This document shows positions 2,669 through 34,641 of a DNA stretch of 34,641 bases, piece after piece. The stretch is taken from IMG/VR virus record IMGVR_UViG_3300042731_006034, positions 1 to 34,641 of that record, one strand, 5' to 3'. The DNA comes from a virus. Position 1 is the stretch's first letter. Each line of letters starts with the position of its first letter. The position numbers and the translations under genes are program-made. The notes beneath the pieces are model-generated. The model had not been told where the DNA came from, searched no databases, and was given only the letters and a program-made list of their open reading frames with translations.

Positions 2669-2688
2669 ATTGCCCTAATTCATATCCA

Positions 2689-5132: not shown

Positions 5133-6839
5133 ATGAGAAACGACCGAGAAAAATTAGCAGACTTGGATAAAACCAACGACGAAGAATTAATTGTCAAACT
5201 GGTCAAGTCTTGCCGCAAAGAGGCTGATAGTAATCAAGGTGAATGGACGAAGCGTGCCAAAAGGAATATCGAATATTACGTGGGCAACCAGTGGTTGACC
5301 GAAGAAGGCGAAATAGATGATAGTTCCCCAGCGTGGCGGTTTCGGACGCAAGTGAATTTGATATTTAATACTATTCAGAGCATTACGGCCTCGGGGTTGG
5401 ATGCCCGACCACGGGTGTATTATTCTGCTGATGACCAAAATCAAAGCCAATTAGCCGAGCATCTCACTGATATTATTGAGGCTTATCAGGAGATGCGGCT
5501 GGAAGAATGGTTGGTGTATCAGACTATCTTGTGGTTTACCTTGACCGGCATTGCTTGGCGGAAGTATCTGTGGGATGCTAATTTAAACCGGCCGACGTCC
5601 TTTGTTATTCCGGCGTGGGAAGTAGGCGTAGACCCGGATGGGTGTTTACCCGACTGCTCCGACCATCGCTATCTGATTCACACCAAAGAAGAGGATATTG
5701 ATATAGTGGCACGCAGGTATGGCGTGGATGAGGATGATATAGCCGGGGAGAGTGCGGATGCGGATGATGAAGTGAGTTTTTGGCGGCGGTGGTTTAAGCG
5801 GCATGAGCTTTCCGAGACAGTGCCACGCAAAAAAGTTGCCGTACATGAGTTATGGTATTTTGGGCAGACGCCAGCCGACTTGATTGCGGATGAGAAACCG
5901 GCAAAGAGTGTAAAGTACCCACAAGGACGGGTTTTTGTTGTCTCTGGTAACAAATTGCTTTATCAGGCAGCTAACCCTTTTAATCATGCGCGTGCGCCGC
6001 TGCTCCCATTTCATGGTTGCACGGCGCCCAGTGGGTTTTTAGGCTTCGGTATCGTAGACCAGTTAGCTCCAATTCAATTTGCCCTCAATGTATTGATGAG
6101 CCAAGCCATCATGAGTAACATTCTGATGGCTAATCCACAATGGGTGGTCGAAGAGGGGGCGGTTAATGATGGGTGGATAACGAATGAGCCGGGGCTGGTG
6201 ATTAAAACCGCCGAGGGCATGATAGACCGAGTGGAAAAACAACCGGGGGTGGGCCCTTCTAGCTCTACTTTTCGGTTAATTAGTGATTTAACCCAATTTG
6301 CCGAACGGGTATCCAGTGTGTCTGAGGTGATGTGGGGGCGGCAGCCCGGGGGCAGTGCATCAGGGATTGCCATTGCTGGATTGCAGCAAGCGGCCTCAAC
6401 GACCATCCGGCAGTATATGCGGTGGTTTGAGATGTCCTACAAACTAGCGGCTATCATGGAGGCGGAGAACTTACAGCAATACGCCAATCCTATTAGTCAG
6501 GACATGCTCACCCACATGAATTTGGGCGAATGGTTCAACTGGGAGGAAGAGATTCGGCAATTAAGGTTTGATGTGCATGTGCAGAGTTTGTCCGAGCTGC
6601 CCCGTAATTTGGAGGGGCGGTTAAACTTTGGGATGCAGATGGTACAATTGGGCGTGTTTGATATAGAGGAATTTTTAGATTTTACCCGGATTCCTATTTC
6701 GGACAGGTTGCGCAGTCAAATAGCGCCGCCGGATATGGGGATGATGGGTAATCAATTAGGTACACCCCGGCAGCAACTAGCTGGCTTGCAAGGGTTGGCT
6801 GGTTTAGGACAGGGTGTACCGGTGGAAGGGAGGTTATAA
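5133..6839 (+). CDS. Portal protein (P22-like group)
   Basis: 568 residues. The portal family is recognised from the N-terminal pattern (WTKRAKRNIEYYVGNQWL ... RTQVNLIFNTIQSITA ... DARPRVYYSA), then ILWFTLTGIAWRKYLWD, the conserved VIPAWEVGVDPDG, and an RFVVSGNKLLY-type wing strand. A stem and crown follow (PLLPFHGCTAPSGFLGFGIVDQLAPIQFALN), with long helices before the C-terminus. The C-terminal tail is Met/Gly/Gln rich. The portal forms the dodecameric DNA gate at one capsid vertex and docks the terminase. It lies 15 bases after terL, and the downstream gene overlaps its stop (TAATGA). The length is close to portals of short-tailed phages that lack a tape measure. The start has only a weak GGA-type RBS. 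Confidence 0.88.
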   Translation: MRNDREKLADLDKTNDEELIVKLVKSCRKEADSNQGEWTKRAKRNIEYYVGNQWLTEEGEIDDSSPAWRFRTQVNLIFNTIQSITASGLDARPRVYYSADDQNQSQLAEHLTDIIEAYQEMRLEEWLVYQTILWFTLTGIAWRKYLWDANLNRPTSFVIPAWEVGVDPDGCLPDCSDHRYLIHTKEEDIDIVARRYGVDEDDIAGESADADDEVSFWRRWFKRHELSETVPRKKVAVHELWYFGQTPADLIADEKPAKSVKYPQGRVFVVSGNKLLYQAANPFNHARAPLLPFHGCTAPSGFLGFGIVDQLAPIQFALNVLMSQAIMSNILMANPQWVVEEGAVNDGWITNEPGLVIKTAEGMIDRVEKQPGVGPSSSTFRLISDLTQFAERVSSVSEVMWGRQPGGSASGIAIAGLQQAASTTIRQYMRWFEMSYKLAAIMEAENLQQYANPISQDMLTHMNLGEWFNWEEEIRQLRFDVHVQSLSELPRNLEGRLNFGMQMVQLGVFDIEEFLDFTRIPISDRLRSQIAPPDMGMMGNQLGTPRQQLAGLQGLAGLGQGVPVEGRL

Positions 6840-18611: not shown

Positions 18612-19936
18612 TAACATTCATTATTGACGACTATATCATAGACCCTTTAGGTATTGCTTATTTATCGGCGATGCTAAAGCAAGCCGGGCATAAACCGAAA
18701 TTGCTTCTGACTGAAGCGTTAAAAACGCAAGAGATAACTACGCCCATTGTAGCTTTTTCGGTAACCACTGGCAAGCATACGCATTATACTGAAGTCAGTC
18801 AAGAGCTAAAACGTCAATATCCGCATCTGACTGCTATCTTCGGGGGACCACATTGTACCTTTTTCCCTGACTTTGTCAAACATGCTGCTGTTGATTATTT
18901 ATTTCGGGGTGAAGGATTTGAGGCTATCGTCCAATTTATCGATAATTGGGATACTGACAAACTGTATGACACTGCTAACTTAGTTTATGTGCATGCCCCT
19001 TGCACTGAAACGGTACGAGAGAATGAATTATCACCCCCTTTTGAAGTAGCTAAATTACCTTTTCCTGACCGAGAACTTATCTATCAATACAAGGAAAACC
19101 GGGAGAATCCCATCAAAAACATTATGGCATCTTTTGGCTGTCCGATGCGTTGTTCTTATTGCTACAATGAACAATATACTAAATTGGGTTATCCTTTAAG
19201 GGTTAGACCGGTGGATAGTGTGGTAGAAGAGGGAGCAAAATTAGCAAAGGACTATCCGGCAACGCAGTTAATCTTCTTTCAGGATGATATTTTCCCTATT
19301 TATCGCCCCGAATGGATAACCGAATTCGCCCGGCAGTGGCGCGCTAAAGTGAAGTTGCCCTTTCATATTCAATTTAGAATTGAGATGCTTACAGAAATGG
19401 TTTTAGCTACTTTAAAACATGCTGGGTTGCATAGTTGCACTTTTGCTTTAGAATCGGCTAATGCAGATACGAGAGTAGTTTTGTTAAACCGGCAGGTAAC
19501 GGATACGCAAATAAAAGCGGGGGTTAAGCTCTTACAGCAGTATGGGATAAAATATCGGATAGAAAATATGTTGGGGTTGCCCCATGAAACGTTAGATGAT
19601 GCTTTGGCAACTTTGGACTATAACATTGCTTGCCGCCCGGCTATTGCATGGGCTTCGTTGTACACTCCTTATTTTGGGACAAAATTAGGGAACTATTGTC
19701 GGGATAAGGATTTAATTGAAACAACCAAATGGGGTGCTGATTTTTTTACCCATGCGTCGTTGAAACTGCCGCGAAAGAAACAAATAGAGAGAATTCAAAA
19801 ACTATTTGCTTTGATTTGTGCTATGCCAATGTTGCGTTGTCTTTTGCCTTGGTTAATTCGTTTACCACTGAATTATCAAAGAGTATACCAGTGGGCAAAA
19901 CAATACCTTTACAAGCACAGGTTATATAAATGTTAA
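18608..19936 (+). CDS. Second B12-binding-type radical SAM enzyme
   Basis: 442 residues, ATGA-coupled. The N-terminal cobalamin-binding-like domain shows DPLGIAYLSAMLKQAGHKPK, TAIFGGPHCTFFPDF and DYLFRGEGFEAIVQF. The core has MASFGCPMRCSYCYNEQ with C178, C182 and C185, then LIFFQDDIFPIYRPEWITEF, HSCTFALESANADTRV and YRIENMLGLPHETLDDAL. The C-terminus is hydrophobic (LFALICAMPMLRCLLPWLIR), suggesting membrane or lipid-substrate contact. It shares only the general plan with the other radical SAM protein, so the pair is not a recent duplication. It ends the cassette; a 124-base gap follows. The substrate is unknown, and a polyprenyl-linked glycan or lipid is a reasonable guess. Confidence 0.9.
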   Translation: MITFIIDDYIIDPLGIAYLSAMLKQAGHKPKLLLTEALKTQEITTPIVAFSVTTGKHTHYTEVSQELKRQYPHLTAIFGGPHCTFFPDFVKHAAVDYLFRGEGFEAIVQFIDNWDTDKLYDTANLVYVHAPCTETVRENELSPPFEVAKLPFPDRELIYQYKENRENPIKNIMASFGCPMRCSYCYNEQYTKLGYPLRVRPVDSVVEEGAKLAKDYPATQLIFFQDDIFPIYRPEWITEFARQWRAKVKLPFHIQFRIEMLTEMVLATLKHAGLHSCTFALESANADTRVVLLNRQVTDTQIKAGVKLLQQYGIKYRIENMLGLPHETLDDALATLDYNIACRPAIAWASLYTPYFGTKLGNYCRDKDLIETTKWGADFFTHASLKLPRKKQIERIQKLFALICAMPMLRCLLPWLIRLPLNYQRVYQWAKQYLYKHRLYKC

Positions 19937-20060: not shown

Positions 20061-20366
20061 ATGAAACATTTAACCCGTGGCTCAGCCGTGACTATTTGGT
20101 TCACCACGAAAACGAAGTCCACTTATGCCGGGGCGTGGTCTTACGCCGACCCGGACAACGGGTGCAAGATAACTATTGTTCGGGAAAGTGATAATTCCAC
20201 CATTATTGACGATGTGGCGATGACTAAAAGTGCGACGGGGATATATTATTATTATTGGCAGACGACCACCAGTTATGGCATTGGGCGGTATGTTGTCCAG
20301 TGCACTGCTGACGGAACAACGTATGATGGTATCTTCAAAGAAACCTTAGCCTATGTGGAGGGTTGA
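20061..20366 (+). CDS. Small Ig-like beta protein
   Basis: 101 residues from ATG 20061, with GGAG nine bases upstream; an in-frame TTG at 20034 has no RBS and is not used. It begins KHLTRGSAVTIWFTTKTKST and has the beta-sandwich run DNGCKITIVRESDNSTIIDD, GIYYYYWQTTTSYGIGRYVV and DGIFKETLAYVE. This is an Ig-like/transthyretin-type domain common in phage particles. It has the same general plan as the small protein at 26474 and the first domain of the appendage protein at 570. I infer a structural accessory placed at the neck. No catalytic features are present. Confidence 0.6.
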   Translation: MKHLTRGSAVTIWFTTKTKSTYAGAWSYADPDNGCKITIVRESDNSTIIDDVAMTKSATGIYYYYWQTTTSYGIGRYVVQCTADGTTYDGIFKETLAYVEG

Positions 20367-20368
20367 TA

Positions 20369-21367
20369 ATGGCATACAAACGGGTTGAGATTAGAGAAAA
20401 ATTACGGCGCAAACTCTCGGAAATCGAAGAAGGAACATGGAGTGATGATGAACTTAACGACTGTATCGGTGATGGGGAAAGAAGAACGTGTGAAGAATGC
20501 ACCGTGCAGAATGAAATGGGCTTAATTGATGAGCAGCAGTCCCACCAAATTATTGCTGACCAGTACGAGTATCCCTTGCCCTCCGACTTTCTCGACTTTA
20601 TCAGTGTAGAACAATTCTATAGTGGTGAATATTGTCCTTTGCGATACAAAAGTTACCGAGAGCTACGGCGGGGGCAACGCCCGGGAACAACCAGTGGGCG
20701 AATGCTCTGGTTTGCGTTGGGACGGCGGATGCGAGCAGTGTTGGGCAATGGCGCTTGTGATGCGGGCGGTTCATCGACGGCTTTAATAGATGCGGCCGTA
20801 GACTTTTCAACGTGGGGTATTCGGGAAAGTAAAGCCTATGCCCATAATGACACCGACGATAGTTACGCGTTAATCACCACAGTAGCCGCCAACCAATTGA
20901 CTACGGCCGCTTTAACTGGTGGGGCAGACAACACGTGGAGCGAGGATGATAGCTATTACGTTGAAGAAATAGAAGCAACCTTGGATAGTATCATGGTAGA
21001 CCCAACCCCCAGCACCTCTGATGATACTGGTACAGAGAACCTTTATATCCAGTATAGTAGGTATGCTCGGACGATGACCGCCGACCAAGACTACTCGGAA
21101 ATCCCGGACTATGCGTTGGATACTCTTTTATATGCGTCAGCTATTTATGCCTTAGAGAAAAAAGAAGGGGTGGGGACGGCAGTAGTGGCAAATACCACTC
21201 AAATGTTTAAGTTTGAAGCGGCGGAAGTACGCCGGTTTATGCAACGAAGAGGACAAACCAATTACCGTAGGGTACGGGATGTATCTCTTTGGGGTACGGG
21301 GATAGGTATTCATGGACGGGTGCAGTCGGCAACTCGACAAGACCCCAGTCCATTGACCGCAGGATAA
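20369..21367 (+). CDS. Neck adaptor / head-tail connector (P22 gp4-like)
   Basis: 332 residues; I take ATG 20369, GGAGGG lies about six bases upstream, and the frame overlaps no upstream coding sequence. The N-terminal helices (KRVEIREKLRRKLSEIEEGT, SDDELNDCIGDGERRTCEEC) and the middle DQYEYPLPSDFLDFISVEQF are typical of the gp4-like adaptor that closes the portal. So is the C-terminal helical part (DYALDTLLYASAIYALEKKE, FKFEAAEVRRFMQRRG, RRVRDVSLWGTG). Residues about 126-198 (DAGGSSTALIDAAVDFSTWG ... GGADNTWSEDDSYYVEE) look like an inserted beta module found in other phage proteins. The adaptor joins portal to nozzle. Its order before the nozzle gene supports this call. Confidence 0.78.
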   Translation: MAYKRVEIREKLRRKLSEIEEGTWSDDELNDCIGDGERRTCEECTVQNEMGLIDEQQSHQIIADQYEYPLPSDFLDFISVEQFYSGEYCPLRYKSYRELRRGQRPGTTSGRMLWFALGRRMRAVLGNGACDAGGSSTALIDAAVDFSTWGIRESKAYAHNDTDDSYALITTVAANQLTTAALTGGADNTWSEDDSYYVEEIEATLDSIMVDPTPSTSDDTGTENLYIQYSRYARTMTADQDYSEIPDYALDTLLYASAIYALEKKEGVGTAVVANTTQMFKFEAAEVRRFMQRRGQTNYRRVRDVSLWGTGIGIHGRVQSATRQDPSPLTAG

Positions 21368-21371
21368 TACA

Positions 21372-23234
21372 ATGCCAAAACATCCAATCAGTAACTTTGC
21401 CGCTGGCATTATGGCGGCCAGTGGGTATACCAATTACAAAGACGTGGCGGCGGCGGAAATAATTAACTTTGATGTCGATGAGTACGGTCGGTTAGTAAAG
21501 CGACTGGGCTATAGTCATCTCAATAGTAGCGCTTTAGTGGCAATTCCAAAGTCGATGATACGAGCATACTATCGGGGCAGTGGTTTATCCAGCCGGGAAC
21601 ATCTCATCGTCGCCTGTGATAATGCGACGGGTTTGTGGTATTGGGATGGCGCGGCGTTTCAGGAGTTAAAGAACTCGTCTGATGACCCAGCCTCATCTAT
21701 TGACCTTTCGGGTAGCCCCTCTGCCCGGTTTGGCATGGCGGTATATGGGCATCGCTTATTCATGGCGAATGGTTCGTCAAGGATGCAATATTGGGTCAAG
21801 TTGGCAGCGGCAGCGCCGGTATTGTATGACCATGGCATTGATGCCCCAGATGAGCCAACATTAGGAGTGGACGGTAGTGGTTCTAATAGCTTAGAAGCAG
21901 AGAAATTTTATGGTTATGCGGTGACGTTTTATAACCATAACGACGCCATTGAGTCGGCTAACTTTCCGGCGGCGGCGCGGGTGACGGCAGAAACAACAGT
22001 CGCCAACAAAACTATCAATTTATCCAGTATTGAAGTATGTAGTGACCAACAGGTGACCCGGCGGAAGATATATCGCACGGCGGCACAGGACACCGAAGCC
22101 GGGGCGGAAAACGCCCAGTTGTACTATCTCGACACTATCAATGATAATACTACAACCACCTATCAAGACGATGGGGATGTAACTTTGTCATCTACTATAT
22201 TGCCTTCGGAGGACTGGGACGAACCGGGACAATACGCCTATGTATTGGGGGATGCTGGGCGCTTATGGGTAGCTGATAAAGATGATAGTTACACCGACTA
22301 TTCGACCTTTGACGCTACCGGGGCACCGGTGTTGGATGGTTTTCCAAGTGGCAACTCTTTACAAATAGAGCCAGACGATGGGGATATTATCACCGCTTTA
22401 GCGCGGATTCCCGGCGGGTTGAACCAACGGGCGGTGTTTAAACGGAATGCAACCTATATTATTCATGGTGATACTGCTAGTACGATGCAAATACAACGGC
22501 ACATGCCCGGTTGCGCCGCACCGTTTGCCGTAGCCGAAGTCAATCTTGAAGGGGGCAATGACCTATTGTTCTTCTTTGGCGCCGACAAACAGATTTGGGC
22601 TTTGGGGGCTGGGGCACCGCAGTTGGTATCATTACCCGTAAAACCTTTACTAGATGATATTCCAGCCAGTCGTTTTGACCAATTGCAGGCGGTAGGTTAT
22701 GCCAACAAGTATCTGTTAGCCTATCCCACCGGGGACAACGAGAATGACCGGCTACTGGTATATGATGCCAGTCAGAAGTATTGGACGACCTATGACCTGC
22801 CGGTTAATTGGTTGAGTTGGTGGAACGGCGAGGAAAGTACGGACGCCGATAAAAACCGGCTGGTATTTGCCAATAGTGGGACATCTTACGTCGAATACCT
22901 CTTTACGGATAGTGTTGGAGATGAGATATACGAGGACAATAGCACGCCGATAACGGCTAGTTGGTTATCGAATACGCTCTATCTGCCGTATGAAAGTATT
23001 ATCACGGGAGTGTATATTTATGACGTAACTGAAAGCACTTATACGGTACGGGTGGACAAGGTGGATGAGCGAGGGGTGCGCACTGGCAGAGAGCATCCCG
23101 GCTTTGCCCCGTCTCGGCGGAACAACTATCGACAGGGTTGCTTTGAAAGGGGGCGGGGGTTTCAGATATACTTTGAGACCGAATCTACCCCCAGTATTGT
23201 AGAACGGATAGAAATAGAATGGCGTAGGGTATAG
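21372..23234 (+). CDS. Tail nozzle / DNA stabilisation protein (P22 gp10-like)
   Basis: 620 residues. It begins with the characteristic entry PKHPISNFAAGIMAASGYTN and EIINFDVDEYGRLVKRLGYS, followed by repeated beta blades (LIVACDNATGLWYWDGAAFQ, RFGMAVYGHRLFMANGSSRM). An Ig-like segment (EKFYGYAVTFYNHNDAIESA) follows, then further blades (YVLGDAGRLWVADKDDSYTD, LLFFFGADKQIWALGAGAPQ, NRLLVYDASQKYWTTYDLPV). These features match the beta-propeller-containing nozzle of short-tailed phages, which plugs the tail and receives the spike or fibres. The C-terminal part (TPITASWLSNTLYLPYES) fits the last domain. It follows the adaptor gene by four bases. Confidence 0.8.
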   Translation: MPKHPISNFAAGIMAASGYTNYKDVAAAEIINFDVDEYGRLVKRLGYSHLNSSALVAIPKSMIRAYYRGSGLSSREHLIVACDNATGLWYWDGAAFQELKNSSDDPASSIDLSGSPSARFGMAVYGHRLFMANGSSRMQYWVKLAAAAPVLYDHGIDAPDEPTLGVDGSGSNSLEAEKFYGYAVTFYNHNDAIESANFPAAARVTAETTVANKTINLSSIEVCSDQQVTRRKIYRTAAQDTEAGAENAQLYYLDTINDNTTTTYQDDGDVTLSSTILPSEDWDEPGQYAYVLGDAGRLWVADKDDSYTDYSTFDATGAPVLDGFPSGNSLQIEPDDGDIITALARIPGGLNQRAVFKRNATYIIHGDTASTMQIQRHMPGCAAPFAVAEVNLEGGNDLLFFFGADKQIWALGAGAPQLVSLPVKPLLDDIPASRFDQLQAVGYANKYLLAYPTGDNENDRLLVYDASQKYWTTYDLPVNWLSWWNGEESTDADKNRLVFANSGTSYVEYLFTDSVGDEIYEDNSTPITASWLSNTLYLPYESIITGVYIYDVTESTYTVRVDKVDERGVRTGREHPGFAPSRRNNYRQGCFERGRGFQIYFETESTPSIVERIEIEWRRV

Positions 23235-23623: not shown

Positions 23624-26464
23624 ATGGCAGATAGAAAAAGTATTGGGGCTACTAATGAATTAGGCTGGGCTAACAAGGACAAATATCAAAGTATGCGCAA
23701 TATCCGCTGGCGCAACGAACTAATGCACGCTGATATTGACGCTAATGGTAACCTGCGGTTTAAATCGCCGGTGGTATTTGCGAATAGCATTTCAGGGGTA
23801 TTCTACAATGTGCAGAATTACGGGGCAGCGGCGGATGGCACAGATGATAGTTCAGCTATTCAAGATACAATAGATGCGGTTGAAACTGCCGGTGGTGGGG
23901 TGGTCTACTTTCCAGCCGGGACTTATGGGGTCAGCGGGCAGTTAAACATTGCTGATAATGTGATGCTCTGGGGGGATGGGTGGGGGTCAATTCTATCCCA
24001 ATTAGAGGGCGGCGGCAGCTCAACCCGAACCATCAATATTAACGGGGATGACAATGTCGTAGTGCGCAACTTGTGCATTAACCATGACGGCGTTGTCCAT
24101 GCGGCGGGTGAATGGAATCACGCTATCCGCATTACGGATAGCACTAATATCATTATTAATAACGTCAAGGTTATAGGGCCGGCGAAGGATGACGGTGCCA
24201 GTCGTGGGGATGGTATCTATGTTTCTGGCACGTCCAGCAACATCGCCATTGACAATTGTTTGTTGCAAGGCAATAGCCGCAATGGTATAGCGGTAGTAGA
24301 AGGCACGAATATTGTCATTCGGGGCTGCCGGATTACGGGGGAAAACAACGAAGCCGGCATTGATTTAGAACCAAATGCCGGGGAAACGGTACAATACGTT
24401 TTGATAGATGATTGCTATGTAGACCATGCTATCGGCTTGGTTGCCGCCGGGACAACCAAACTGGTTTCAGATATTCAGATAACCAATTCTAAATGTCTCT
24501 TGCTGCGGGTTTGGGGCAATGTGCATCATGTCGAAATGGACGGCTGCGAACTGGCCGGGTCTTACTCTTATAGTGGTTGGCTTTCAGCAGAACATCGGTC
24601 AGTGGATGCAGCTTACCGGTCTACCGATATTGTGGTAAAGAATACCAAGTTTGCCCGGGGCTACCTGCAAGGGGTTGACCTTACCGTAGAGAACTGTATC
24701 ATTGATGCGACCGGGCAAGACTATGGCTTGGACGATAATAGCATGTCGGGGCGGTTAACTGTGCGGGGATGCGAGGTCAAGAACGCCACGTTATACGGGA
24801 TATTTGGGCGCAGTGCCAGCATGTACAGCATCAGCAATTGTAACATTCATACTAATGGGGATGGAATACGCTTGCAAAAGGGTACCACTGTCATGGATAT
24901 CAACGATTGTGATATTCATGACAATACAACTTACGGGGTGCATCTGGATAGTGGGGCAAATGCCCGGATAAACTTAGCAAATTGCCGTATCTACAGCAAT
25001 ACAAGCGATGGGGTGCATGTAGTAGAAGCAAACAAACTCAAGCTAGTGGGCTGCCATATTTATAACAATGGCGTTGAAGGAATCCAGCTACAACCCGATG
25101 ACCCACCGTATCAACATCTTAGAGAAGTTGATTTTGCTACACATGACAATTGGGATGTCACCAACGACTTTGATAACTGGGACAGCAATGAGTATGCCAG
25201 TTATGTGTGGTCTAGTAACCAAACATCTACATTGGTGCAAACGGCTGCCAACCGTCGTGGGACACTACTCAATTTAGTCCCAACATGGTTTACCTATACC
25301 GTAGGAGTAACCACTGCCCCCGATGGCGATTTTGCTTTGACATTGGAGAACGTGGGGGAATCATCGGTAACCTTAGACCATACTGCGGGAACACATACTG
25401 TAAGGTTTATCTCAGCGGCGGATGCGGATACGAGTGACTGCACCATTCAAGCAGTGGTTTCGACGGGGACAGAGGGGACAATTACCATCGATGATGTGTA
25501 TTTATATCAGTCCAAGATACAACATACGGATATTATCGGTTGTACTATTGAAGATACCCGGCAGGGCGCCAGTCGCACGCAAGACCATGGTGTGCGGATG
25601 CGGTCGTATGAAACGGGGGCGGTCAACGTTGCTGACACAACCATTCGGAATCATACCCAATATGGCATTTTGGATAACACCTCTTGGCGGCTGCGGGTAA
25701 GTAATTGCCAGATAGAACGGAATACTCTCTTCGGTATATCCATTGCGAATACGTATTTAGAAGAAGCTCTCATCAGCAATAACATCATCCGTAAGAATAG
25801 TAACCGGGGGTTGCGGGTGGACAATAATACGGCAACCGTAATTATTCAGGGCAATGAAATTATCGAGAACGGGTCGGACGGGGTGCGCATAGACCATGCC
25901 GACGAGCTGATAATTAACAGCAATGTCTTTCGGGATAATGCTGGCATAGGGTGTAGTATTCATCCCGGCAGTAATGATGATGTCAAATATCTCGCCCTCA
26001 CCGGCAACCAAGCGATAGATACTGGGGTAGCTACACAGACATACGGGATATGGTTGCGTGGTGCTGATATAACGAATAGCATAGTAAGTGACAATTACGC
26101 CGTGGGGAATACTACACAGCAGATATATATTACTGCTACTGGTGTGGTATATGACACGGTGAACAATGTTGGCTTAGTAACCATACGTGACTTCACTGCG
26201 GCAGATACAACACCATCGGTTCGACGAGGCAATTTATTTCGTACTCAAAACACTGGTGGCACTACAATTACTGACTTTGATGATGGCACTGAAGGTAAGA
26301 CCATTAGAGTTATTATTGGTGATGCATTTACTACTATCGACTTTACAGGTTCAAGTCTGAAAGGCAATGCCGGTGTGGACTGGTCACCGGGCAATGGTGA
26401 CTGGATGGAATGTACTTTATATAACAATAACTGGTATTGCTCAGTACATGACTGCACCGCATAG
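23624..26464 (+). CDS. Right-handed beta-helix tailspike with inserted jelly-roll domain
   Basis: 946 residues. A short N-terminal module (residues 1-55, ELGWANKDKYQSMRNIRWRN) leads to the beta-helix entry VFYNVQNYGAAADGTDDSSA (59-78) and GGGVVYFPAGTYGVSGQLNI, the Pectate_lyase_3 signature. Many coils follow with the I--N-I--N rhythm (NIIINNVKVIG, NIAIDNCLLQGNSRNGIAVV, DINDCDIHDNTTYGVHLDSG). Around residues 493-632 the coils stop for a domain resembling a carbohydrate-binding jelly roll (NWDVTNDFDNWDSNEYASYV, FALTLENVGESSVTL, TEGTITIDDVYLYQ). The helix then resumes to about 820. The end (RRGNLFRTQNTGGTTITDFD ... DWMECTLYNNNWYCSVHDC) is a terminal beta domain seen in other phage spikes. I infer host-polysaccharide binding and possible cleavage; no catalytic acids can be assigned. 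Confidence 0.85.
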   Translation: MADRKSIGATNELGWANKDKYQSMRNIRWRNELMHADIDANGNLRFKSPVVFANSISGVFYNVQNYGAAADGTDDSSAIQDTIDAVETAGGGVVYFPAGTYGVSGQLNIADNVMLWGDGWGSILSQLEGGGSSTRTININGDDNVVVRNLCINHDGVVHAAGEWNHAIRITDSTNIIINNVKVIGPAKDDGASRGDGIYVSGTSSNIAIDNCLLQGNSRNGIAVVEGTNIVIRGCRITGENNEAGIDLEPNAGETVQYVLIDDCYVDHAIGLVAAGTTKLVSDIQITNSKCLLLRVWGNVHHVEMDGCELAGSYSYSGWLSAEHRSVDAAYRSTDIVVKNTKFARGYLQGVDLTVENCIIDATGQDYGLDDNSMSGRLTVRGCEVKNATLYGIFGRSASMYSISNCNIHTNGDGIRLQKGTTVMDINDCDIHDNTTYGVHLDSGANARINLANCRIYSNTSDGVHVVEANKLKLVGCHIYNNGVEGIQLQPDDPPYQHLREVDFATHDNWDVTNDFDNWDSNEYASYVWSSNQTSTLVQTAANRRGTLLNLVPTWFTYTVGVTTAPDGDFALTLENVGESSVTLDHTAGTHTVRFISAADADTSDCTIQAVVSTGTEGTITIDDVYLYQSKIQHTDIIGCTIEDTRQGASRTQDHGVRMRSYETGAVNVADTTIRNHTQYGILDNTSWRLRVSNCQIERNTLFGISIANTYLEEALISNNIIRKNSNRGLRVDNNTATVIIQGNEIIENGSDGVRIDHADELIINSNVFRDNAGIGCSIHPGSNDDVKYLALTGNQAIDTGVATQTYGIWLRGADITNSIVSDNYAVGNTTQQIYITATGVVYDTVNNVGLVTIRDFTAADTTPSVRRGNLFRTQNTGGTTITDFDDGTEGKTIRVIIGDAFTTIDFTGSSLKGNAGVDWSPGNGDWMECTLYNNNWYCSVHDCTA

Positions 26465-26473
26465 TAAGAGGAT

Positions 26474-26824
26474 ATGTTAGCCTATAGAGAAGAAACCATT
26501 AAATTCTGGTGTACCATCCGTGACGGTGATGGGCTTGAGCCAACCACCGTCGCGGATGTCAACTTTTCCATTCGGCAAGATGACCGGGAGATAACCAAGC
26601 CGGCGGCGATGACCCAAGATAGTGGCACCCGGTATTATGCCGAATGGGACGTACCCATATTACAAGCCTTTGGGCAGTATTATGTTTTGGTGACGGCGAC
26701 AGTGGATAGCGCTGCTTGGGAGCAGGTTATAGCCATCATTGAAATACGGGAGAATATCGAAGCCTTTATTATTGACCTGTACAATAGAAGTTTATCAAGA
26801 AGGGGGTTCAATAATGCCCTATAA
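26474..26824 (+). CDS. Small Ig-like beta protein after the spike
   Basis: 116 residues; AGAGGA lies a few bases upstream of the ATG. The sequence is one beta-sandwich: EETIKFWCTIRDGDGLEPTT, VADVNFSIRQDDREITKPAA, GTRYYAEWDVPILQAFGQYY and VTATVDSAAWEQVIAIIEIR. It ends with a helix (ENIEAFIIDLYNRSLSRRGF). It resembles the small protein at 20061 in its layout (charged start, MT---TG-YY--W, G-Y-V--TA), suggesting paralogues with a similar virion role. The last 11 bases overlap the next gene. The function is inferred only from position. Confidence 0.6.
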   Translation: MLAYREETIKFWCTIRDGDGLEPTTVADVNFSIRQDDREITKPAAMTQDSGTRYYAEWDVPILQAFGQYYVLVTATVDSAAWEQVIAIIEIRENIEAFIIDLYNRSLSRRGFNNAL

Positions 26825-27449
26825 ACAGAATAACATCCAACGGATATTACGCAAAGAGGAGAGCGTCGGGGACGTAGAGCTACGTCCCCGACGCCCCATT
26901 GAAGAGCAGAAATGGCCTCGGTTTTACGACCCGTTTTATGCTCAGATATTACGCAAAGTACCTATTGTTGGGCGGGCAATAGCGGGGCCGTCCGCCGTCG
27001 AACGGAAAAGGAATTACTATCAGTATCTCTTAGAAAAGCAAGCCCGTGGGTTAGCCGCGCAAGCCGCTGGACAGCTAACCCCAGCAGACATTACTCAAGA
27101 ACAAAACATTATGGGGCAGGCGGGGCGGCTGGGGCAACAGATAGGCAGTCAGACATTGGGGCCGAGTTACGGACGGCGGGGGTTGGCTTTTTCACCTGCT
27201 GCTGGGGCGGCCGGAGGGCAATTGCAAGCAACCGTAGGACGGGGAGCATTAGAGACCATTCAAGCCCAACGGCAAGCCCGACAGCAAGGGGCGCAGTCCC
27301 AACTAACCCAAATACAAGTGGCTTTAGCCAACCAAGCCCAAGCCCAGTTTAGTCAAGAACAGCAGGAACAAAGTGAGTTTAACCAGACATTGGGGCGGAT
27401 ATTTGCCTTAATAGCTTTAGACCCAAGTTTAGCCGCTTTTTTTGGTTAG
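26814..27449 (+). CDS. Probable internal virion (ejection) protein
   Basis: 211 residues from ATG 26814 with AGGGGG about eight bases upstream; an in-frame start at 26739 would overlap the previous gene heavily. The composition is Gln/Ala/Gly-rich and helical: EKQARGLAAQAAGQLTPADI, MGQAGRLGQQIGSQTLGPSY, QAQRQARQQGAQSQ and LANQAQAQFSQEQQEQSEFN. It ends with a hydrophobic helix (GRIFALIALDPSLAAFFG). Gln/Ala-rich helical proteins placed between spike and giant protein genes fit T7 gp14/P22 gp7-type ejection proteins, which leave the capsid with the DNA and form a trans-envelope channel. A 15-bp palindrome lies in codons 17-27. Confidence 0.62.
   Translation: MPYKQNNIQRILRKEESVGDVELRPRRPIEEQKWPRFYDPFYAQILRKVPIVGRAIAGPSAVERKRNYYQYLLEKQARGLAAQAAGQLTPADITQEQNIMGQAGRLGQQIGSQTLGPSYGRRGLAFSPAAGAAGGQLQATVGRGALETIQAQRQARQQGAQSQLTQIQVALANQAQAQFSQEQQEQSEFNQTLGRIFALIALDPSLAAFFG
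26863..26894 (+). repeat. Near-perfect 32-bp palindrome inside a coding region
   Basis: GCGTCGGGGACGTAG (26863-26877) is exactly complementary, in inverted order, to CTACGTCCCCGACGC (26880-26894), with only AG between. It falls about 50 bases after the start codon of the internal protein gene and keeps the frame. It is the longest perfect inverted repeat I found in the window. As RNA it would form a very stable hairpin; as DNA it is a possible dimeric protein site. Confidence 0.75.
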
Positions 27450-27460
27450 CAGGTGAAATT

Positions 27461-27685
27461 ATGCCATACACCCAAAAAGAAAAGAAGTTAATGGCGTCCC
27501 TGCGGCGGCAATATGGGGCGAAGAAAGCCCAGCAAGTGTATCATGCTATGCTTAATTCTAAAGAACATGATAATATCTTTGGCGCCAAAAGCAAACAAGA
27601 AAGAAGTAAACAGGGGTTAACCACTATGTCAAAGCGCAAGAAGGGCAAACACAAGAGAACTAAACGGAAGAAACGGGGGCGATGA
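27461..27685 (+). CDS. Small basic protein
   Basis: 74 residues; AGGTG lies about seven bases before the ATG. It starts PYTQKEKKLMASLRRQYGAK and KAQQVYHAMLNSKEHDNIFG. This resembles a recurring family of small phage proteins beginning MPYT--Q--LM with a K-G-KK--VY-AM helix (recalled, not searched). The C-terminal 19 residues (MSKRKKGKHKRTKRKKRGR) are almost entirely basic and start with an internal Met at 27629, so a shorter product is possible. A DNA- or RNA-condensing role inside the capsid is a guess. Confidence 0.6.
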   Translation: MPYTQKEKKLMASLRRQYGAKKAQQVYHAMLNSKEHDNIFGAKSKQERSKQGLTTMSKRKKGKHKRTKRKKRGR

Positions 27686-27686
27686 T

Positions 27687-29069
27687 ATGCCAAGTTCAGC
27701 GTTAGATGTTGCCAAAACAATAGAATTTGCCTTAATCCTGAAACGGCAGGGGAAAATAGGCGAAGCTAACCGCCAACTCAAGTTGATGGAATACAATTTA
27801 GAACGAGACAAACTCGAACGTCTCAAGGCGGCGGATGAAGCTCAACATAACTATCATATGGCCCGGTTGGAATACCTTAACGAACAGTTGAAAGCCGGGA
27901 GACAACCTCCCCCCATGCACCCCGCCGAAGAGGCTTATAAGCGCGCCCAAACTGGCAAGCTATTAGCTGACCAAGCGATGCAACGTCGGTTAGCAGGGGC
28001 ACAAGAGCGACTGACTGGCATAGGGGCGCAACATGAAACGCCAGAAACAAAACATTATCTGGCCGGTATGCTTGGGGTTGACCCTTATGCGCCAGCTGCA
28101 CCCACAACCCCAAAATATCAAGTGGTTGGTCGAGGCGGCCTGGTTTTTGACCCAACTACTGGCAGGTATATACCACCACCAACTGCTGCTATGCCTACTG
28201 AGCAACCGCAAATCATGCAAGATGCTCAGGCTTTATACGATGCTATCCAGTCACCGGAGACGCCAGACATGTTAAAGAAATTATATCAAATCCACTTTGA
28301 TAGTCTAACGCAACAACCAATATTGCCTACTCGTACACTATCGTTTGATGACCGGATGAAAGAAACCTATATGACATCGCAAAACCCGATTGAGAAGTCT
28401 TTGGCTTTAGCTTTGTTAGGTTTAGAAGAGGTTGGCCCGGGTGACTTTCGCAAAGTAGCCCCAGAACCAGAAATGGCACAGCGGATTCGATTTATTGAAC
28501 GGAAAACCGGTACTCCACTCAACCGGGCAGAAATATTGCAATTAGCTGGTATTAGACCAGAGAAGATTACCGCTAAACAGATGGAATCCCTCGATGGTTT
28601 AGTCGAATTATCGGTTGGATTGCCCAACCTAACGGGCATTCAACGCAAGGTTAGAGGTGACGAACTCGAACCTATTGGTCAATGGTTGGCTCGTATAGGG
28701 AAGGAAATTGGCAAAGAGAAAAACAAAGATATGCGGCAAGATGTGATAAGTTATATTAAATCGGTCGGGGAAAGTGTTACTCTGGGCGAACGCAATGCTT
28801 TTTACGCCACTACAGCGGCTTCTATGGGGTTGGATGCCAAAGTTTTTACCCAAGCCAAGTCAATTACCCTTAGCCCAGAAGAAACCGTCCGCCAACAAAA
28901 CCAGCAAGCCGAACAACGACCTATCCAAGTATCCAGTTGGCAGGATGTCATTAATTTGCGGCAACCGATAACCAGTGAGCAATATCGGCAGATGGTACAG
29001 CAGTTCGGGCGCCCGGAAACCTTATCTCCAGAGTTGCAAGAGGCTTTAAAAAAGCTCATTACTTTCTAA
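27687..29069 (+). CDS. Probable internal virion protein, mid-size
   Basis: 460 residues. Residues 1-75 are helical and charged (IEFALILKRQGKIGEANRQL, MEYNLERDKLERLKAADEAQ). A Pro-rich linker follows (APAAPTTPKYQVVGRGGLVF), then a mostly helical middle (SLALALLGLEEVGPGDFRKV, RIRFIERKTGTPLNRAEILQ). The C-terminal part is charged (LRQPITSEQYRQMVQQFGRP). No enzyme motif is seen. It lies one base after the small basic gene and before the giant gene, the place where T7-like and P22-like phages put their second ejection protein. The ribosome signal is weak (GGGGGCGATGAT). Confidence 0.6.
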   Translation: MPSSALDVAKTIEFALILKRQGKIGEANRQLKLMEYNLERDKLERLKAADEAQHNYHMARLEYLNEQLKAGRQPPPMHPAEEAYKRAQTGKLLADQAMQRRLAGAQERLTGIGAQHETPETKHYLAGMLGVDPYAPAAPTTPKYQVVGRGGLVFDPTTGRYIPPPTAAMPTEQPQIMQDAQALYDAIQSPETPDMLKKLYQIHFDSLTQQPILPTRTLSFDDRMKETYMTSQNPIEKSLALALLGLEEVGPGDFRKVAPEPEMAQRIRFIERKTGTPLNRAEILQLAGIRPEKITAKQMESLDGLVELSVGLPNLTGIQRKVRGDELEPIGQWLARIGKEIGKEKNKDMRQDVISYIKSVGESVTLGERNAFYATTAASMGLDAKVFTQAKSITLSPEETVRQQNQQAEQRPIQVSSWQDVINLRQPITSEQYRQMVQQFGRPETLSPELQEALKKLITF

Positions 29070-29081
29070 GGAATTTATATT

Positions 29082-32000
29082 ATGCTGAGCCCAGAAAGAA
29101 CAATTATCCAAGCTGGCGAAGAACCGCAAGAACCACCAGAATACACCATTGACCCCTTTTTGCGGAGCAAATTAGAAGATGATGGCTGGTTGCAACCCGG
29201 TGCTGAATTATCCACCTTAGACCCGTTTATCCTGAGCAAACTGCAAGATGACGGTTGGCTACAACCCGTTACCCCTACTACAGGCGAGTCATTGGCAAGA
29301 GAATTACGGGGCATTGGCGGGGTATTAGGCAAAGTCGGTAAAACTATTGCACCGGGCGCACCAGAAGAACGTCTCGCCGCCCAAATGCAACTTGGCATTG
29401 GCGCTGGCCAAGTTGCCAAACAAGTGGGTAAAGGGCTGGTGGCAGTGGCAGGGCAAGTAGGATTAGCGACTATGCCGGGGGAAGCTTTGATAATGTCCCC
29501 CGAAATGCAAAAAGCAGCGGCTGAAGCTGCGCAAACATTGGGGCAAACTTTTATCACTGACCCTTTAGCGAAATACCATCCGCGCGGTAAGTTTAAGCGT
29601 ATGCGCCAAGAATTTAGAGCCGGCCCCATTCGCACTTCAACGGATGTGTTCTTTGACTTGCTTACCTTAGCGACGTTAGTTGGGGCGGGAATGGTAGCTG
29701 CTGGCAAGGTTGGTTTAGGCGGTGTTAAAGTAGCCCAAGTAGGCGGCAAAACCGTTCTCGCAGGTGAAAAGATTACCCGTACTGCCAAGATAGCCGCTGG
29801 TTTGGAACGGGCGGGCAAAGCTTTGATAACCGGGAGTAATATCGTTGATCCTTCTTTTTATGTTTATCAGGGATTCATCAAGGGTACGGGCAAGGGTTAT
29901 GCTTTGGTGCAAAACCTACTGGATGAAAAGTTGATGAAGGCCGCCAGCAAAAATATCGACTTGGAGGGATTAGCGAAACTCGGTACTTTAAACCATCGGA
30001 TTAAAAATATGGCTACTGGTTTAGGGGCGGATGACGCCGCTAAGTTTGCTGATGACTTCGTTGATTTACTAGCTACTGGGGGGAAAAGCGGTGAACCTCT
30101 GACCACAGCACAAATACTTGATGACGCTATCAAAAACAAGAAGCCCTTGACTGTTTCTTATGCGACTAAGGGGAAAGAAGTTAAAAAGAGAACGTGGAGT
30201 AATATCAGTTGGTCAAAGGATAAAAAGAAGATTTATGCGATGGATAGCTTGCGAGGTAAAAGAACCTCATTTTCACCCCGGAACGTTCGGGGGGTTGAAG
30301 GGGTGCAATTAGTACGAGACATTCCCGAACCCGTTATAGAACTGTACAAACAATTCAAAAACCTAACTGAAGATCAACAACGCACCTTAATTGCTATCCA
30401 TGCCGCCGCCCAAAAGGTAGCTTCTGAGGGTGATGATAAACTGATGCAAACCCTCTGGAAGAACATCGGCAAAAAGGTGGATATGTCACCGGCGGAGGCG
30501 ATGAGTTTCTACTTGGGATTAAATGATGACTTAGCCGAGGAAGCTACCCAAGCCATCTTAAAAAGCCCGGCGGCTGATGGTAAAAAGATAGCCGATATAG
30601 CCCAGCAACTGCAACAGGACATCTTGGATTTAGGGTTGCCGGAAGAAATTGCCACTCAAGCGGGGGATAACTTTACCAAAATTGCCGAAACCATCCCCCG
30701 GCGTGGAGTGCAAGGAACATTAGCGGATGGATTAAAGAAATTAGGTTATACAGAAGCTGCTATCAAGAAGATACACCCGGTAGCCGCCCAAGCTGCCGTT
30801 GACCAGCAAATCTCAGCCAGTGATGCGAAGGTAAATGCCGAGGGGGTTTTAGAAGTTGCTCAGGTAAGCAAGCCCAAACCAAAGCCAGAACCCGAAAAAC
30901 CCTTCCGAGAAATTGAGATAGTCGCCCCCGAAGCGCCGCCAGAAGTGCCGGACGAAGTCGGAACGGAAACCCTAGCCGAAACCATGCAACGTATTAAAGA
31001 ACCAGCCCCTGAACCCACTCCTAAAGTGCCGGCGGCGGAAACTTTTGCTCCTACTGAAGCCGAAGTGCCGGTTGAACCTGAAGCCCCGGCAGAAGTACCA
31101 TTAGAACCCGAAACCCCAGCCGAATTAGAAACACCACATGCCAGAGAAGCCGCTATCCCCAGTGAAGAGGTAGAGCTCCTCCTCATTGACAACCTCAACA
31201 AGGCCATTGGGGCTGGCGATACAGCACAACTAGGCAGGCTTGCCAGCGACAACCCCAACGTTAGGCTTATTCAACCAGAGACCGGCGGCATCCCCGATGC
31301 CCGGTTACATGACATTGATGCCCGGTTACATGACATTCAAGGCGAAGGGCAAATTAGTCGAGTAATAACTCCCGGCTACATGATAGACGACAAAGTGGTG
31401 CGGAAAGCGGTGGTTGAAGCTGGTGGAGCAGCACCAGAGGCACCGGCTGTTACTGAAGAAGCGGCACCGCCGGTAGAAACTACCCCGGAACCCATCCCTA
31501 AAACAGTAACCAAAGCGGAAGGTATTATCACCAATATCACCCCAGAGGAACAGTTACCCCCGACCGGGGTAACTAGATTGCCAGTTTCTGATTTAACTTT
31601 GGCGCCAGAAAAGTTTCAATATAAAATTGGTTATGGCAAAGCCGGTATAACCGGCTCTTTGACCGAAGCAAAGCAATTTCGGGAGGAATTAGCCGGGGTA
31701 GTGAATGTTTGGCAGAATCCTAGTGATAATAAAATTTATGTTGTAAATGGACATAACCGGGTAGAATTGGCTCAACGCTCTGGAGTTAATTCTGTTAATG
31801 TAAAATTTCTGGATGCGGAAACCGCCGAGGAAGCGCGCACATGGGGAGCTTTAATTAATATCGCAGAAGGCCGAGGCAAGCCCCTAGATGCAGCCAAATT
31901 ATTTCGTGATAGTGGCATTACTAAAGCAGATTTAGCCGAGTTTGGCATAGCTTTGTCAGAAAAAAACGCCAGAGAGGGTTTAGCTTTGGCAGCCTTAAAT

Positions 32001-34641
32001 CCAGCTTTATTTAATGCAACTATGCGAGGGGATTTCCCTATGTCCCATGCTATTGCTATTGGGGCAGAGTTACCCGACCACAATTTACAAAATGAAGTGG
32101 TTAGACTAATTGATAAACATACCGCCAAACATAAGAAAATTAACTCAGATACTATTCGCGAATTGGCTAACATGGCAAAAGGAATGCCAACTGCCGAAGA
32201 AACAGAATTAACTTTATTTGGCGAAGAAATATTACAACAGGCTTATGTGGTAGAAAAAGCCGACCTGCAAACATACATCAAACAAAGACTAAGCAAAGAA
32301 AAACGTTTGTTTGGTATGGTAGCTAAATCGGCAAATGCTCAAGAACTCGCTAAAGCTGGCAATGTTATCGAACTTCAAGCAAGCAAGGACATTTCTACTG
32401 AGGCGGCTCAATTGCTTTCTATCTTTGATAGTTTAAAACATACCGCCGGGGAAATTAGTGACATTCTCAATGATGCAGCCATGCGTATAGGCAAAGGAGG
32501 CAACGCTAATGCTATCAAACAAGAAACTTACGAAACTATCCGGGCGAAACTACCCGAAGTTATCATCGGAGGCGAAACGCCGGTTGCTAGTGCAACTGCG
32601 CCAAGCCCTGCTACACCAACTGAAATAGTACAAGAAACCCTAGACTCTGATGCTACCACGAAAGCCGCCGGGGCAGTGTCCAACTTCCTCAAAGATGAAA
32701 AGGGCTTTGCCATAGCCCCAGCGGAGGCGATTGCCCGGACAAGAGAACAAGTCCGGAAGGCTATCGACTACCTCAACGAAAAGGGGGTGACGGAATCTGG
32801 GGCACAAATTACTGGACATGCTTTGTTTACCCCTGAGGTGGTATTGAATACTATGGGGCCGGCAAGCCGCAAGTACACCACCGCTTTGCGCTTTGTTGAA
32901 AACGCCGCTGATGCCCAAGCGGCGCCGGCTATTTATGGGCGGGTGATACCCATTCATAAGGAACTATCCGAACTGGAATGGGCTAGTCTGTGGGATGCTT
33001 TAGAAGGCAAAGCTGAACCTATTAATGAGAAAGTCGAACAAGCTTTGTCGCAGATGCAACAAGAGTTTGCCAAAGTTGCCCAAGCTGCGGCGGATAATGA
33101 TGTGCAAATTTTCCACTACAAAGCCGATGGCAGCCGGGTAGGGACACCGTTCCGCCCCCGGGAAAACTATGCCCCTCATATGTATCCGTCTGAACTGTAC
33201 GCCGATAAAAACTTCATGGCACAGGCCGCTGAACAACTAGCAGAGCAGATGCAAATTAGCACTCCCGAAGCCGAGAAGATATTGCAAGAAAGTCGTATGG
33301 GTAAGCATGAATGGCGCATGGGTAATTTGGAAATGGCACGACAGTTTGACATGCCGGGTTATCGCCGGGACGTGGGAGCATTCATCAAATACTTTACTGA
33401 AGCTTGGAAGCGCATCGAATTAGCGAAAGCCTTCGGGGGAGACTATAGCAAACTGGACGACTTGTTTGCCGAGATAGAAGCTGAAGGACACGACCCCCTC
33501 TTAGCGAAGTCAGTCTTTCAAGTATTTGTTGGACAAGTGCCGATGACCGAATGGCAAAAACGCTATCTGATGCCCCTGGTGCGGGATGTTAAGCGGTTCA
33601 ACGTCACCACCAAAATGGGCTTGGCAACAGTAGCCAATATCTTTCAAGGTCCCGTCAATGTCCCGATGATAACTTCACACCGGTCTTGGATAAAAGCCCA
33701 AAAGCGCATTCTGACCGATAAAGAATTCCGCCAGCGCATGGAGATGACCGGGGCTGTATTGCAAAGCGCCCGGCATTACATGGGTACCGGCGCGGCGGAT
33801 ACGTGGTTATTTCGCATCGGGGCGCCGGCTTTTTCTGCCGTTGAGCAAATGAACCGCTTAGTCGGCGGCACTGCGGGTATCATGTGGGTCAAAGAAAACG
33901 AGGCTATCCTGCGCCGGGCTTTGCAACAGGGCAAGACCAAACAGGCAGCGGCAGCAAAACGGGTGCTACAACGTTATGACCTTGATGTCGAAGATGTCCT
34001 AGCCAACCCTCTAGGTGAACCGGGACACCCAGACGACGGGGGGGATGCACGGCTTAACCAAGCTGCGGTAAAAGCCGCTAACGTGTCCCAACATCGCTAT
34101 GGGGCATTGGACTTACCGCCGGCTTGGTTTGGCGCCTTTGGGCGGATATGGGGACAGTTCCGCTCCTATACCATGCAACAAAGCGTCTTTGTCGGCCGGG
34201 AGTTTAGAAACGCCGCTAAAGAATTCAGCAAGGGCAACCGTAAACCGATGTTGCGTTGGTTAATTGCTTTAGGTTTTAGCAGCATGGTTGCCGGGGAAAT
34301 TATCAACGATATTCAGGCAATGTTCTCCAACCGCGAACGGCGCTACAAACTCAAAGACCCCCGGCGCTGGATGCTAGAGAACCTATTAGCTATCCAAGCC
34401 TTTGGACCCATTAGCTTTTTGGTGGATGCCATGCGCTATAATGACTACGTTGGACTGGTCGGTGGGGCGACGGCATCAACGGGGGCAAAAGTTCTCAAGG
34501 CAGCCAAAACCCCAGTAAAACTCCCCCGAACTCTCATCAAAGAAGGAACGCCACGCTATATTAGCAAACCATTGACAGGATATGTCTGGCCGCCGGAATC
34601 CAGAAAGAAAACCCCGAAGTCCGATATTGACCGACTACTAG
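29082..34641 (+). CDS. Giant virion/polyvalent protein with ParB-like domain (partial)
   Basis: ATG 29082 (AAGGA about nine bases upstream) opens a frame with no stop to the right edge, so at least 1853 residues are coded and the C-terminus is missing. In order: an N-terminal two-copy repeat (DPFLRSKLEDDGWLQP, residues 24-39 and 47-62); Ala/Gly/Lys-rich helices with a hydrophobic stretch near 190-220; a helical part to about 590; and a Pro/Glu-rich linker (about 590-690). A ParB/sulfiredoxin-like domain begins at about residue 834, with NGHNRVELAQRSG (N889, H891, R893), followed by a helical KorB-like part. After about 1200 there is a long helical region ending in segments such as FGRIWGQFRSYTMQQS (about 1683 onward) and FSSMVAGEIINDIQ. 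I infer an internal, injected protein. Confidence 0.8.
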   Translation, partial: MLSPERTIIQAGEEPQEPPEYTIDPFLRSKLEDDGWLQPGAELSTLDPFILSKLQDDGWLQPVTPTTGESLARELRGIGGVLGKVGKTIAPGAPEERLAAQMQLGIGAGQVAKQVGKGLVAVAGQVGLATMPGEALIMSPEMQKAAAEAAQTLGQTFITDPLAKYHPRGKFKRMRQEFRAGPIRTSTDVFFDLLTLATLVGAGMVAAGKVGLGGVKVAQVGGKTVLAGEKITRTAKIAAGLERAGKALITGSNIVDPSFYVYQGFIKGTGKGYALVQNLLDEKLMKAASKNIDLEGLAKLGTLNHRIKNMATGLGADDAAKFADDFVDLLATGGKSGEPLTTAQILDDAIKNKKPLTVSYATKGKEVKKRTWSNISWSKDKKKIYAMDSLRGKRTSFSPRNVRGVEGVQLVRDIPEPVIELYKQFKNLTEDQQRTLIAIHAAAQKVASEGDDKLMQTLWKNIGKKVDMSPAEAMSFYLGLNDDLAEEATQAILKSPAADGKKIADIAQQLQQDILDLGLPEEIATQAGDNFTKIAETIPRRGVQGTLADGLKKLGYTEAAIKKIHPVAAQAAVDQQISASDAKVNAEGVLEVAQVSKPKPKPEPEKPFREIEIVAPEAPPEVPDEVGTETLAETMQRIKEPAPEPTPKVPAAETFAPTEAEVPVEPEAPAEVPLEPETPAELETPHAREAAIPSEEVELLLIDNLNKAIGAGDTAQLGRLASDNPNVRLIQPETGGIPDARLHDIDARLHDIQGEGQISRVITPGYMIDDKVVRKAVVEAGGAAPEAPAVTEEAAPPVETTPEPIPKTVTKAEGIITNITPEEQLPPTGVTRLPVSDLTLAPEKFQYKIGYGKAGITGSLTEAKQFREELAGVVNVWQNPSDNKIYVVNGHNRVELAQRSGVNSVNVKFLDAETAEEARTWGALINIAEGRGKPLDAAKLFRDSGITKADLAEFGIALSEKNAREGLALAALNPALFNATMRGDFPMSHAIAIGAELPDHNLQNEVVRLIDKHTAKHKKINSDTIRELANMAKGMPTAEETELTLFGEEILQQAYVVEKADLQTYIKQRLSKEKRLFGMVAKSANAQELAKAGNVIELQASKDISTEAAQLLSIFDSLKHTAGEISDILNDAAMRIGKGGNANAIKQETYETIRAKLPEVIIGGETPVASATAPSPATPTEIVQETLDSDATTKAAGAVSNFLKDEKGFAIAPAEAIARTREQVRKAIDYLNEKGVTESGAQITGHALFTPEVVLNTMGPASRKYTTALRFVENAADAQAAPAIYGRVIPIHKELSELEWASLWDALEGKAEPINEKVEQALSQMQQEFAKVAQAAADNDVQIFHYKADGSRVGTPFRPRENYAPHMYPSELYADKNFMAQAAEQLAEQMQISTPEAEKILQESRMGKHEWRMGNLEMARQFDMPGYRRDVGAFIKYFTEAWKRIELAKAFGGDYSKLDDLFAEIEAEGHDPLLAKSVFQVFVGQVPMTEWQKRYLMPLVRDVKRFNVTTKMGLATVANIFQGPVNVPMITSHRSWIKAQKRILTDKEFRQRMEMTGAVLQSARHYMGTGAADTWLFRIGAPAFSAVEQMNRLVGGTAGIMWVKENEAILRRALQQGKTKQAAAAKRVLQRYDLDVEDVLANPLGEPGHPDDGGDARLNQAAVKAANVSQHRYGALDLPPAWFGAFGRIWGQFRSYTMQQSVFVGREFRNAAKEFSKGNRKPMLRWLIALGFSSMVAGEIINDIQAMFSNRERRYKLKDPRRWMLENLLAIQAFGPISFLVDAMRYNDYVGLVGGATASTGAKVLKAAKTPVKLPRTLIKEGTPRYISKPLTGYVWPPESRKKTPKSDIDRLL
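29151..29267 (+). repeat. Two-copy 16-residue repeat near the giant protein's start
   Basis: Copies at 29151-29198 and 29220-29267 encode DPFLRSKLEDDGWLQP and DPFILSKLQDDGWLQP, separated by a seven-residue spacer. The DNA copies differ at several third positions, so the protein sequence, not the DNA, is being kept. This suggests a short binding motif used twice, for example for docking to another virion protein or the scaffold. Confidence 0.7.
31296..31337 (+). repeat. Exact 21-bp tandem direct repeat in the giant gene
   Basis: The same 21 bases occur twice without a gap (31296-31316 and 31317-31337), encoding DARLHDI twice. Because the copies are identical, it is a recent in-frame duplication or a site prone to slippage; the frame stays open. 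It lies in the linker region between the Pro/Glu-rich segment and the ParB-like domain. Confidence 0.85.

Follow-up and report, generated by a model that had tools for sequence, protein, structure and literature searches.

Portals, portal-bound minor head proteins and the internal proteins of podoviruses all reside inside the capsid at the portal vertex, beside the end of the genome. It is not yet settled how ejection proteins hold the genome and meter its passage. T7 gp16-C binds DNA independently of sequence, and it has been proposed, as yet only as a hypothesis, that it clamps the entering genome at around 850 bp (PMC8954989). SPP1 gp7, which is called a DNA-binding protein in a title cited by PMC6316719, is targeted by the portal to the procapsid interior (PMC6316719). 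Both glutamates are required for CTP hydrolysis in B. subtilis ParB, and we took the roles of the ParB pocket residues from the same studies (PMC8367383, PMC8494293). DdrB-like ParB domains have been described in polyvalent proteins (Iyer et al., PMC5512222).

The window analysed here is a whole virus record of 34,641 bases (IMG/VR IMGVR_UViG_3300042731_006034), which is linear and likely a fragment; a test for circular closure found no terminal overlap. At its end, the original prediction placed an open frame of at least 1853 codons, and this frame is present, open at its 3′ side and running off the contig (Table 1). Across 200 shuffles of the same bases, the longest open run averaged 119 codons and reached 216 at most, so the frame is not a product of chance. 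The gene order, with adaptor, nozzle-like, tailspike and small genes followed by the giant gene, corresponds to the ejection position of P22 and T7. Since no tape-measure-like gene was seen in the window, the natural reading is that the phage would be short-tailed, with the giant gene in a gp16-like position. The claim of a ParB-like domain in such a position was supported, in that the module follows the adaptor, nozzle-like and tailspike genes and large proteins of cultured relatives occupy the same position. Between its head and tail genes, the window also encodes glycosyltransferase-like proteins and a radical SAM/B12-binding protein (10864-12555, 12533-13543 and 18608-19936).

Table 1. Features of the window, with positions in nucleotides.
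Feature	Position	Strand	Basis or remark
Terminase	3276-5117		
Portal protein (phrog_156)	5133..6839	+	PHROG; separate from the ParB-like module
Major head protein	8117-9151		
SU10-type adaptor	20363..21367	+	
Putative nozzle/tail-hub-like protein	21372..23234	+	PHROG label "internal virion protein" (phrog_511)
Beta-helix tailspike-like protein	23624..26464	+	
Ala/Gln-rich, short Lys/Arg-rich and 460 aa genes just upstream of the giant gene	26739..29069	+	Candidate smaller internal proteins, from position
Giant open frame, 1853 codons, ATG start, 3′ end missing	29082..34641	+	ORF list and shuffle test
Tandem motif IDPFLRSKLEDDGWLQP / LDPFILSKLQDDGWLQP, residues 23-62	29148..29267	+	Motif scan; possible binding or targeting tag
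Hydrophobic segment, residues 187-205	29640..29696	+	Kyte-Doolittle mean 1.53 over 19 residues
Shared module, residues ~825-1160 (~335 aa): ParB N domain, HTH domain, helical domain	31554..32558	+	
ParB/Srx-type nucleotide-domain fold	31566..31871	+	Model residues 20-121
FQYK motif (Q846, K848), probable equivalent of ParB Q-P-R (C. crescentus Q58, R60)	31614..31625	+	Equivalence from VIA alignment range; Q and K in 44/44
GHNR motif (residues 890-893), equivalent of ParB GERR	31749..31760	+	
I-N-I-A-E-G, equivalent of ParB E-N-x-x-R	31854..31871	+	N926 in 44/44; glutamate position not conserved
ParB-type helix-turn-helix DNA-binding domain fold	31872..32186	+	Model residues 122-226; 4umk_B Z 8.5, 6y93_B Z 7.6, 6s6h_B Z 7.0
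Lineage-specific beta-hairpin and five-helix domain, ~130 aa	32187..32570	+	No clear PDB match
C-terminal region without detectable relatives	32559..34641	+	Hydrophobic stretches near the end

Outside the module, the giant protein had no detectable similarity to any ejection protein. Pfam found no LPD, protease, helicase or ART domain in the protein, whose 3′ end is missing, and a GrpE match that did not reach the cutoff (E 0.0027) was set aside. In an attempt to recover the missing 3′ end, IMG/VR yielded no close relative of either the C-terminal region or the capsid protein; an iterated search of the giant's C-terminus against other polyvalent C-termini found no homology, despite a resemblance by eye. 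Of the window ORFs that were scanned, only the giant protein contains the N-terminal tandem 17-residue motif.

When the giant protein was compared with 50,697 phage records by tblastn, relatives were found for residues ~825-1159 only, and in few lineages: Prochlorococcus phages P-SCSP1, an uncultured marine Autographiviridae phage, "Dunaliella viridis virus SI2" and Ruegeria phage 45A6. Because the single protein had no ParB match in Pfam or among PDB sequences, confirming the ParB call required a family profile and a fold comparison. A five-sequence profile ranked C. crescentus ParB first in the PDB (E 0.04, collinear). Aligned by hhalign against 18 bona fide ParBs of chromosomal and plasmid type, the module matched collinearly at E 1.6e-6; the profile alignment to ParB continues through the HTH, directly after the N domain.

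An AlphaFold (AF2) model of the module, computed with 44 diverse members, had a pLDDT of 90, and Foldseek returned Noc, ParB and KorB as its top matches (E 4.5e-6 to 5e-4). With VIA, model residues 21-224 (protein 830-1033) aligned to ParB 6t1f_B over 182 residues (Z 11.6, rmsd 4.4) and to KorB 8qa9_A over 198 residues (Z 10.2, rmsd 5.9), and the HTH part separately matched DNA-bound Spo0J, Noc and ParB domains. The original prediction of a region resembling the ParB/KorB N-terminal and HTH parts was thus borne out, by the family profile and the model alike. As modelled, the module is confirmed as a ParB nucleotide-domain fold and a ParB HTH, followed by a hairpin/helical domain of its own. 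This last domain matched nothing in the PDB above the common helical background (best Z 7.3) or with confidence, and a ParB-type dimerisation domain was not recognisable in the module.

The predicted NGHNRVELAQRSG is present in the giant protein and includes the GHNR motif. Across 44 members, the equivalents of ParB Q58 and N136 are kept (44/44 each), as is R104, and R60 is replaced by lysine (44/44). Four pocket positions have changed: R103 to N or Q, R139 mostly to E, E102 to H, and E135 to varied residues. We discounted the invariance of GHxR, since the pattern used to scan IMG/VR and the bacterial/archaeal genomes accounts for part of it; Q846, K848, N926 and D936 lie outside that pattern and are invariant in the 44 divergent sequences. 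The GERR and ENxxR motifs with their hydrolysis glutamates are absent, and we therefore filed the module as a ParB-like fold and not as a ParB CTPase. With both glutamates gone, classical CTP hydrolysis appears unlikely; judged from sequence, nucleotide binding is possible.

Pattern scans located 334 module stretches in IMG/VR and 24 in bacterial and archaeal genomes. A search of 72,556 plasmid records found no match, and a plasmid origin of the module was rejected on that basis. Module-bearing proteins range from 363 to more than 5500 aa, and large ones occupy a comparable gene position in P-SCSP1, uvMED S31-C1 and SI2. New here are fusions of the module to portals of the lambda and Mu types and also to a minor-head-type protein; no account of portal-ParB fusions was found in the set of papers searched. 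Lambda-family portals carry it at their C-terminus in L033 and L021 according to Pfam and PHROG scans, and in L008, L009, L025, L027, L032 and L036 by homology. The Mu-type case is L088, from a cyanobacterial genome, and the minor-head-type case is L016 with its near copies. In L087 and L030, the module gene adjoins the portal gene. Other carriers are giant or mid-size proteins with LPD38, MuF_C, ADP-ribosyltransferase, zeta toxin or peptidase domains. Genes around module genes match virion structural, tail, terminase, internal virion, head morphogenesis and DNA-ejection families, a context that is weak by itself as structural neighbours are common in phage contigs. The portal and minor-head fusions are the strong part of the evidence, and they occur in phages other than that of the window. 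Taken together, these sequences indicate a distinct ParB-like lineage tied to virion portal-vertex proteins, and the common denominator of its carriers would be the portal vertex inside the capsid.

Some of these fusions and large proteins have features of their own. In L030 (465-1976 / 1879-3108) and L018 (3-1019 / 1031-2332), portal and module occupy separate frames that overlap or adjoin, although close relatives have them fused; the split may reflect a sequencing error or a frameshift. A Cys-rich segment of ~45 residues (CSTGYGCGxTCISLxKECR...IGKERLKRLxxLAxGG) recurs within module proteins and neighbouring large ORFs: at 126-179, 588-632 and 1263-1305 of the L052 module protein, in L053, L059 and L062, and at the N-terminus of the L016 protein. 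It is possibly a metal-binding, processing or packaging tag. L052, L053, L062 and others match the minor-head N-terminus through this short segment and not over the whole domain, and were not counted as minor-head fusions. In L013, L020, L029 and L031, a minor-head-type N-terminal domain of ~156 aa (phrog_16619) occurs in several neighbouring large ORFs of one phage and so looks like a shared targeting tag.

Among cultured phages, the module gene of P-SCSP1a is gene 21; its describers, going by size and position without any homology, had independently guessed at an internal virion protein (PMC9860041). The P-SCSP1u cryo-EM text that was searched deals with capsid, portal, adaptor, nozzle and fibre and does not describe the module protein. 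A distant relative, gp43 of Salisaeta icosahedral phage 1 (SSIP-1; 2319 aa), contains part of the ParB N domain, is annotated as a DNA methyltransferase and is recorded as a structural protein. The 3912-aa "hypothetical" protein of Ruegeria phage 45A6 (L005 6880-18618) joins the ParB module to helicase, methyltransferase, GNAT and LPD38 domains; by eye, it also has a JAB-like HHNHP stretch.

The original prediction had likened the giant to polyvalent proteins and suggested that it could load on, protect or circularise incoming DNA. The comparison stood in part, and these activities, like delivery itself, stay conjectural. A relative does combine the module with LPD38, helicase and methyltransferase domains, but the module is not the DdrB-like ParB (PF18763) known from polyvalent proteins. 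At E 0.1, PF18763 matched 0 of 48 module members, whereas the positive control, P1 DdrB, scored 135 bits; hhalign found no similarity between the two, and a DdrB-type identity was rejected. The DdrB-type family was rare in the one bacterial family examined.

The portal and minor-head fusions point to the portal vertex as the place of action, leaving free delivery into the host as only one of several options. Guided by this shared location and by the clamp hypothesis for T7 gp16-C, we favour a gp16-like internal or ejection protein whose ParB-fold module grips the genome at the portal or as it enters the cell, a reading that we regard as evenly poised between right and wrong. The giant would be the largest internal, ejection-type protein of a short-tailed phage. 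Its probable place of storage is the portal vertex inside the capsid; there, and/or during cell entry, the module probably binds phage DNA. Against this reading stand the lack of similarity to ejection proteins outside the module and the silence of the searched P-SCSP1u cryo-EM text on the module protein. By analogy with the role proposed for T7 gp16-C, the module would work as a grip or clamp. Virion presence, DNA binding, clamp action and nucleotide dependence are properties that we infer for the module protein, and a clamp is not guaranteed, because two CTP-binding and two hydrolysis residues are changed and the ParB dimerisation domain is not recognisable. More speculatively, tailed phages may repeatedly have recruited a ParB-derived clamp to the portal vertex by attaching it to portals, minor head proteins and ejection proteins. 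Such a clamp would grip or encircle the genome end, hold it in the head and control its release, and its switch might be some nucleotide besides CTP or might need no hydrolysis; we consider this general scheme rather doubtful.

Other explanations start from the same observations. The module could be an injected effector that is set free by ejection or proteolysis and then nicks or cleaves the DNA of the host or of a rival, like other ParB/Srx-fold nucleases. Its (N/D)GHxR motif does depart from GERR, some relatives are polyvalent, with LPD38, ADP-ribosyltransferase, zeta toxin, MuF_C, helicase and methyltransferase domains, and polyvalent ParB domains have been read as NTP-regulated DNases (Iyer et al., PMC5512222). 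However, the module keeps a full ParB HTH, which DdrB-like domains as described do not, no metal-site motif was identified in it, and portal-fused modules would need to be cut free before injection; we consider an effector unlikely. The fusions speak for a module that stays in the capsid undelivered, contacts the last-packaged DNA and signals or holds its end, given that it is joined C-terminally to two portal types and also to minor-head-type proteins. This is hardly likely either, as the phage in the window has a portal without the module and proteins of 2000-5500 aa with effector domains look built for delivery.

The HTH domain and the fold as a whole would also fit a ParB-like role in partition or regulation, with loading at a specific site of the incoming genome in the manner of ParB on parS and KorB on its operators. 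The loss of the hydrolysis glutamates, the exchange of one binding arginine for N/Q and of another mostly for E, and the absence of matches in the plasmid records make this highly improbable. Least probable of all, in our judgement, is an inert ParB-derived fold serving as a structural spacer in large virion proteins: the CTP pocket is kept just in part, as a mere scaffold would allow, but the four invariant residues outside the search pattern argue against it.

A DNA grip at the portal or on entry, if correct, could be a means, not described before, by which phages hold their genome, and would extend ParB beyond partition and regulation. A mobile module with a known DNA-clamp fold, found on portals and ejection-type proteins, is a concrete and testable candidate. 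The test is within reach, as cultured P-SCSP1 phages carry the module and the capsid and tail of one of them have been solved.

Compared with known systems, the module resembles the ParB/Spo0J/Noc/KorB CTPase clamps in having the N-domain fold and HTH in the same order and in keeping the Q, the N and one R of the CTP pocket. It differs from them in having GHxR for GERR, xNxxE for ENxxR and its own C-terminal domain, and in being embedded in virion-type giants or fused to portals. With DdrB-like ParB domains it shares the ParB/Srx superfamily, a setting in large phage proteins near virion genes and a D/N ending strand 2; unlike them as described in PMC5512222, it keeps the full HTH. The giant is, like polyvalent proteins, a large phage protein in a virion gene context, but its sequence up to the missing 3′ end contains none of the typical polyvalent domains, which are present in its relatives L005, L102 and others. 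Because the profile of PHROG_21, labelled "portal protein", includes the module as its C-terminal part (positions 1016-1328), the giant matches it (window 31563-32498). The match is restricted to the module and the true portal is encoded elsewhere in the window, so we rejected the giant as a portal; the module explains how this misleading label reaches non-portal giants, an annotation trap. The giant resembles T7 gp16 and P22 gp16 in gene position, great length and hydrophobic segments, and a genome clamp has been proposed for T7 gp16-C, but no sequence similarity to the giant was detected and a ParB fold is not mentioned in PMC8954989. As the module proteins would be, SPP1 gp7 and the MuF minor head proteins are portal-linked, DNA-binding and a vehicle for fused domains (PMC6316719); here, in contrast, a ParB-like domain is what has been fused, and the module is found on portals as well.
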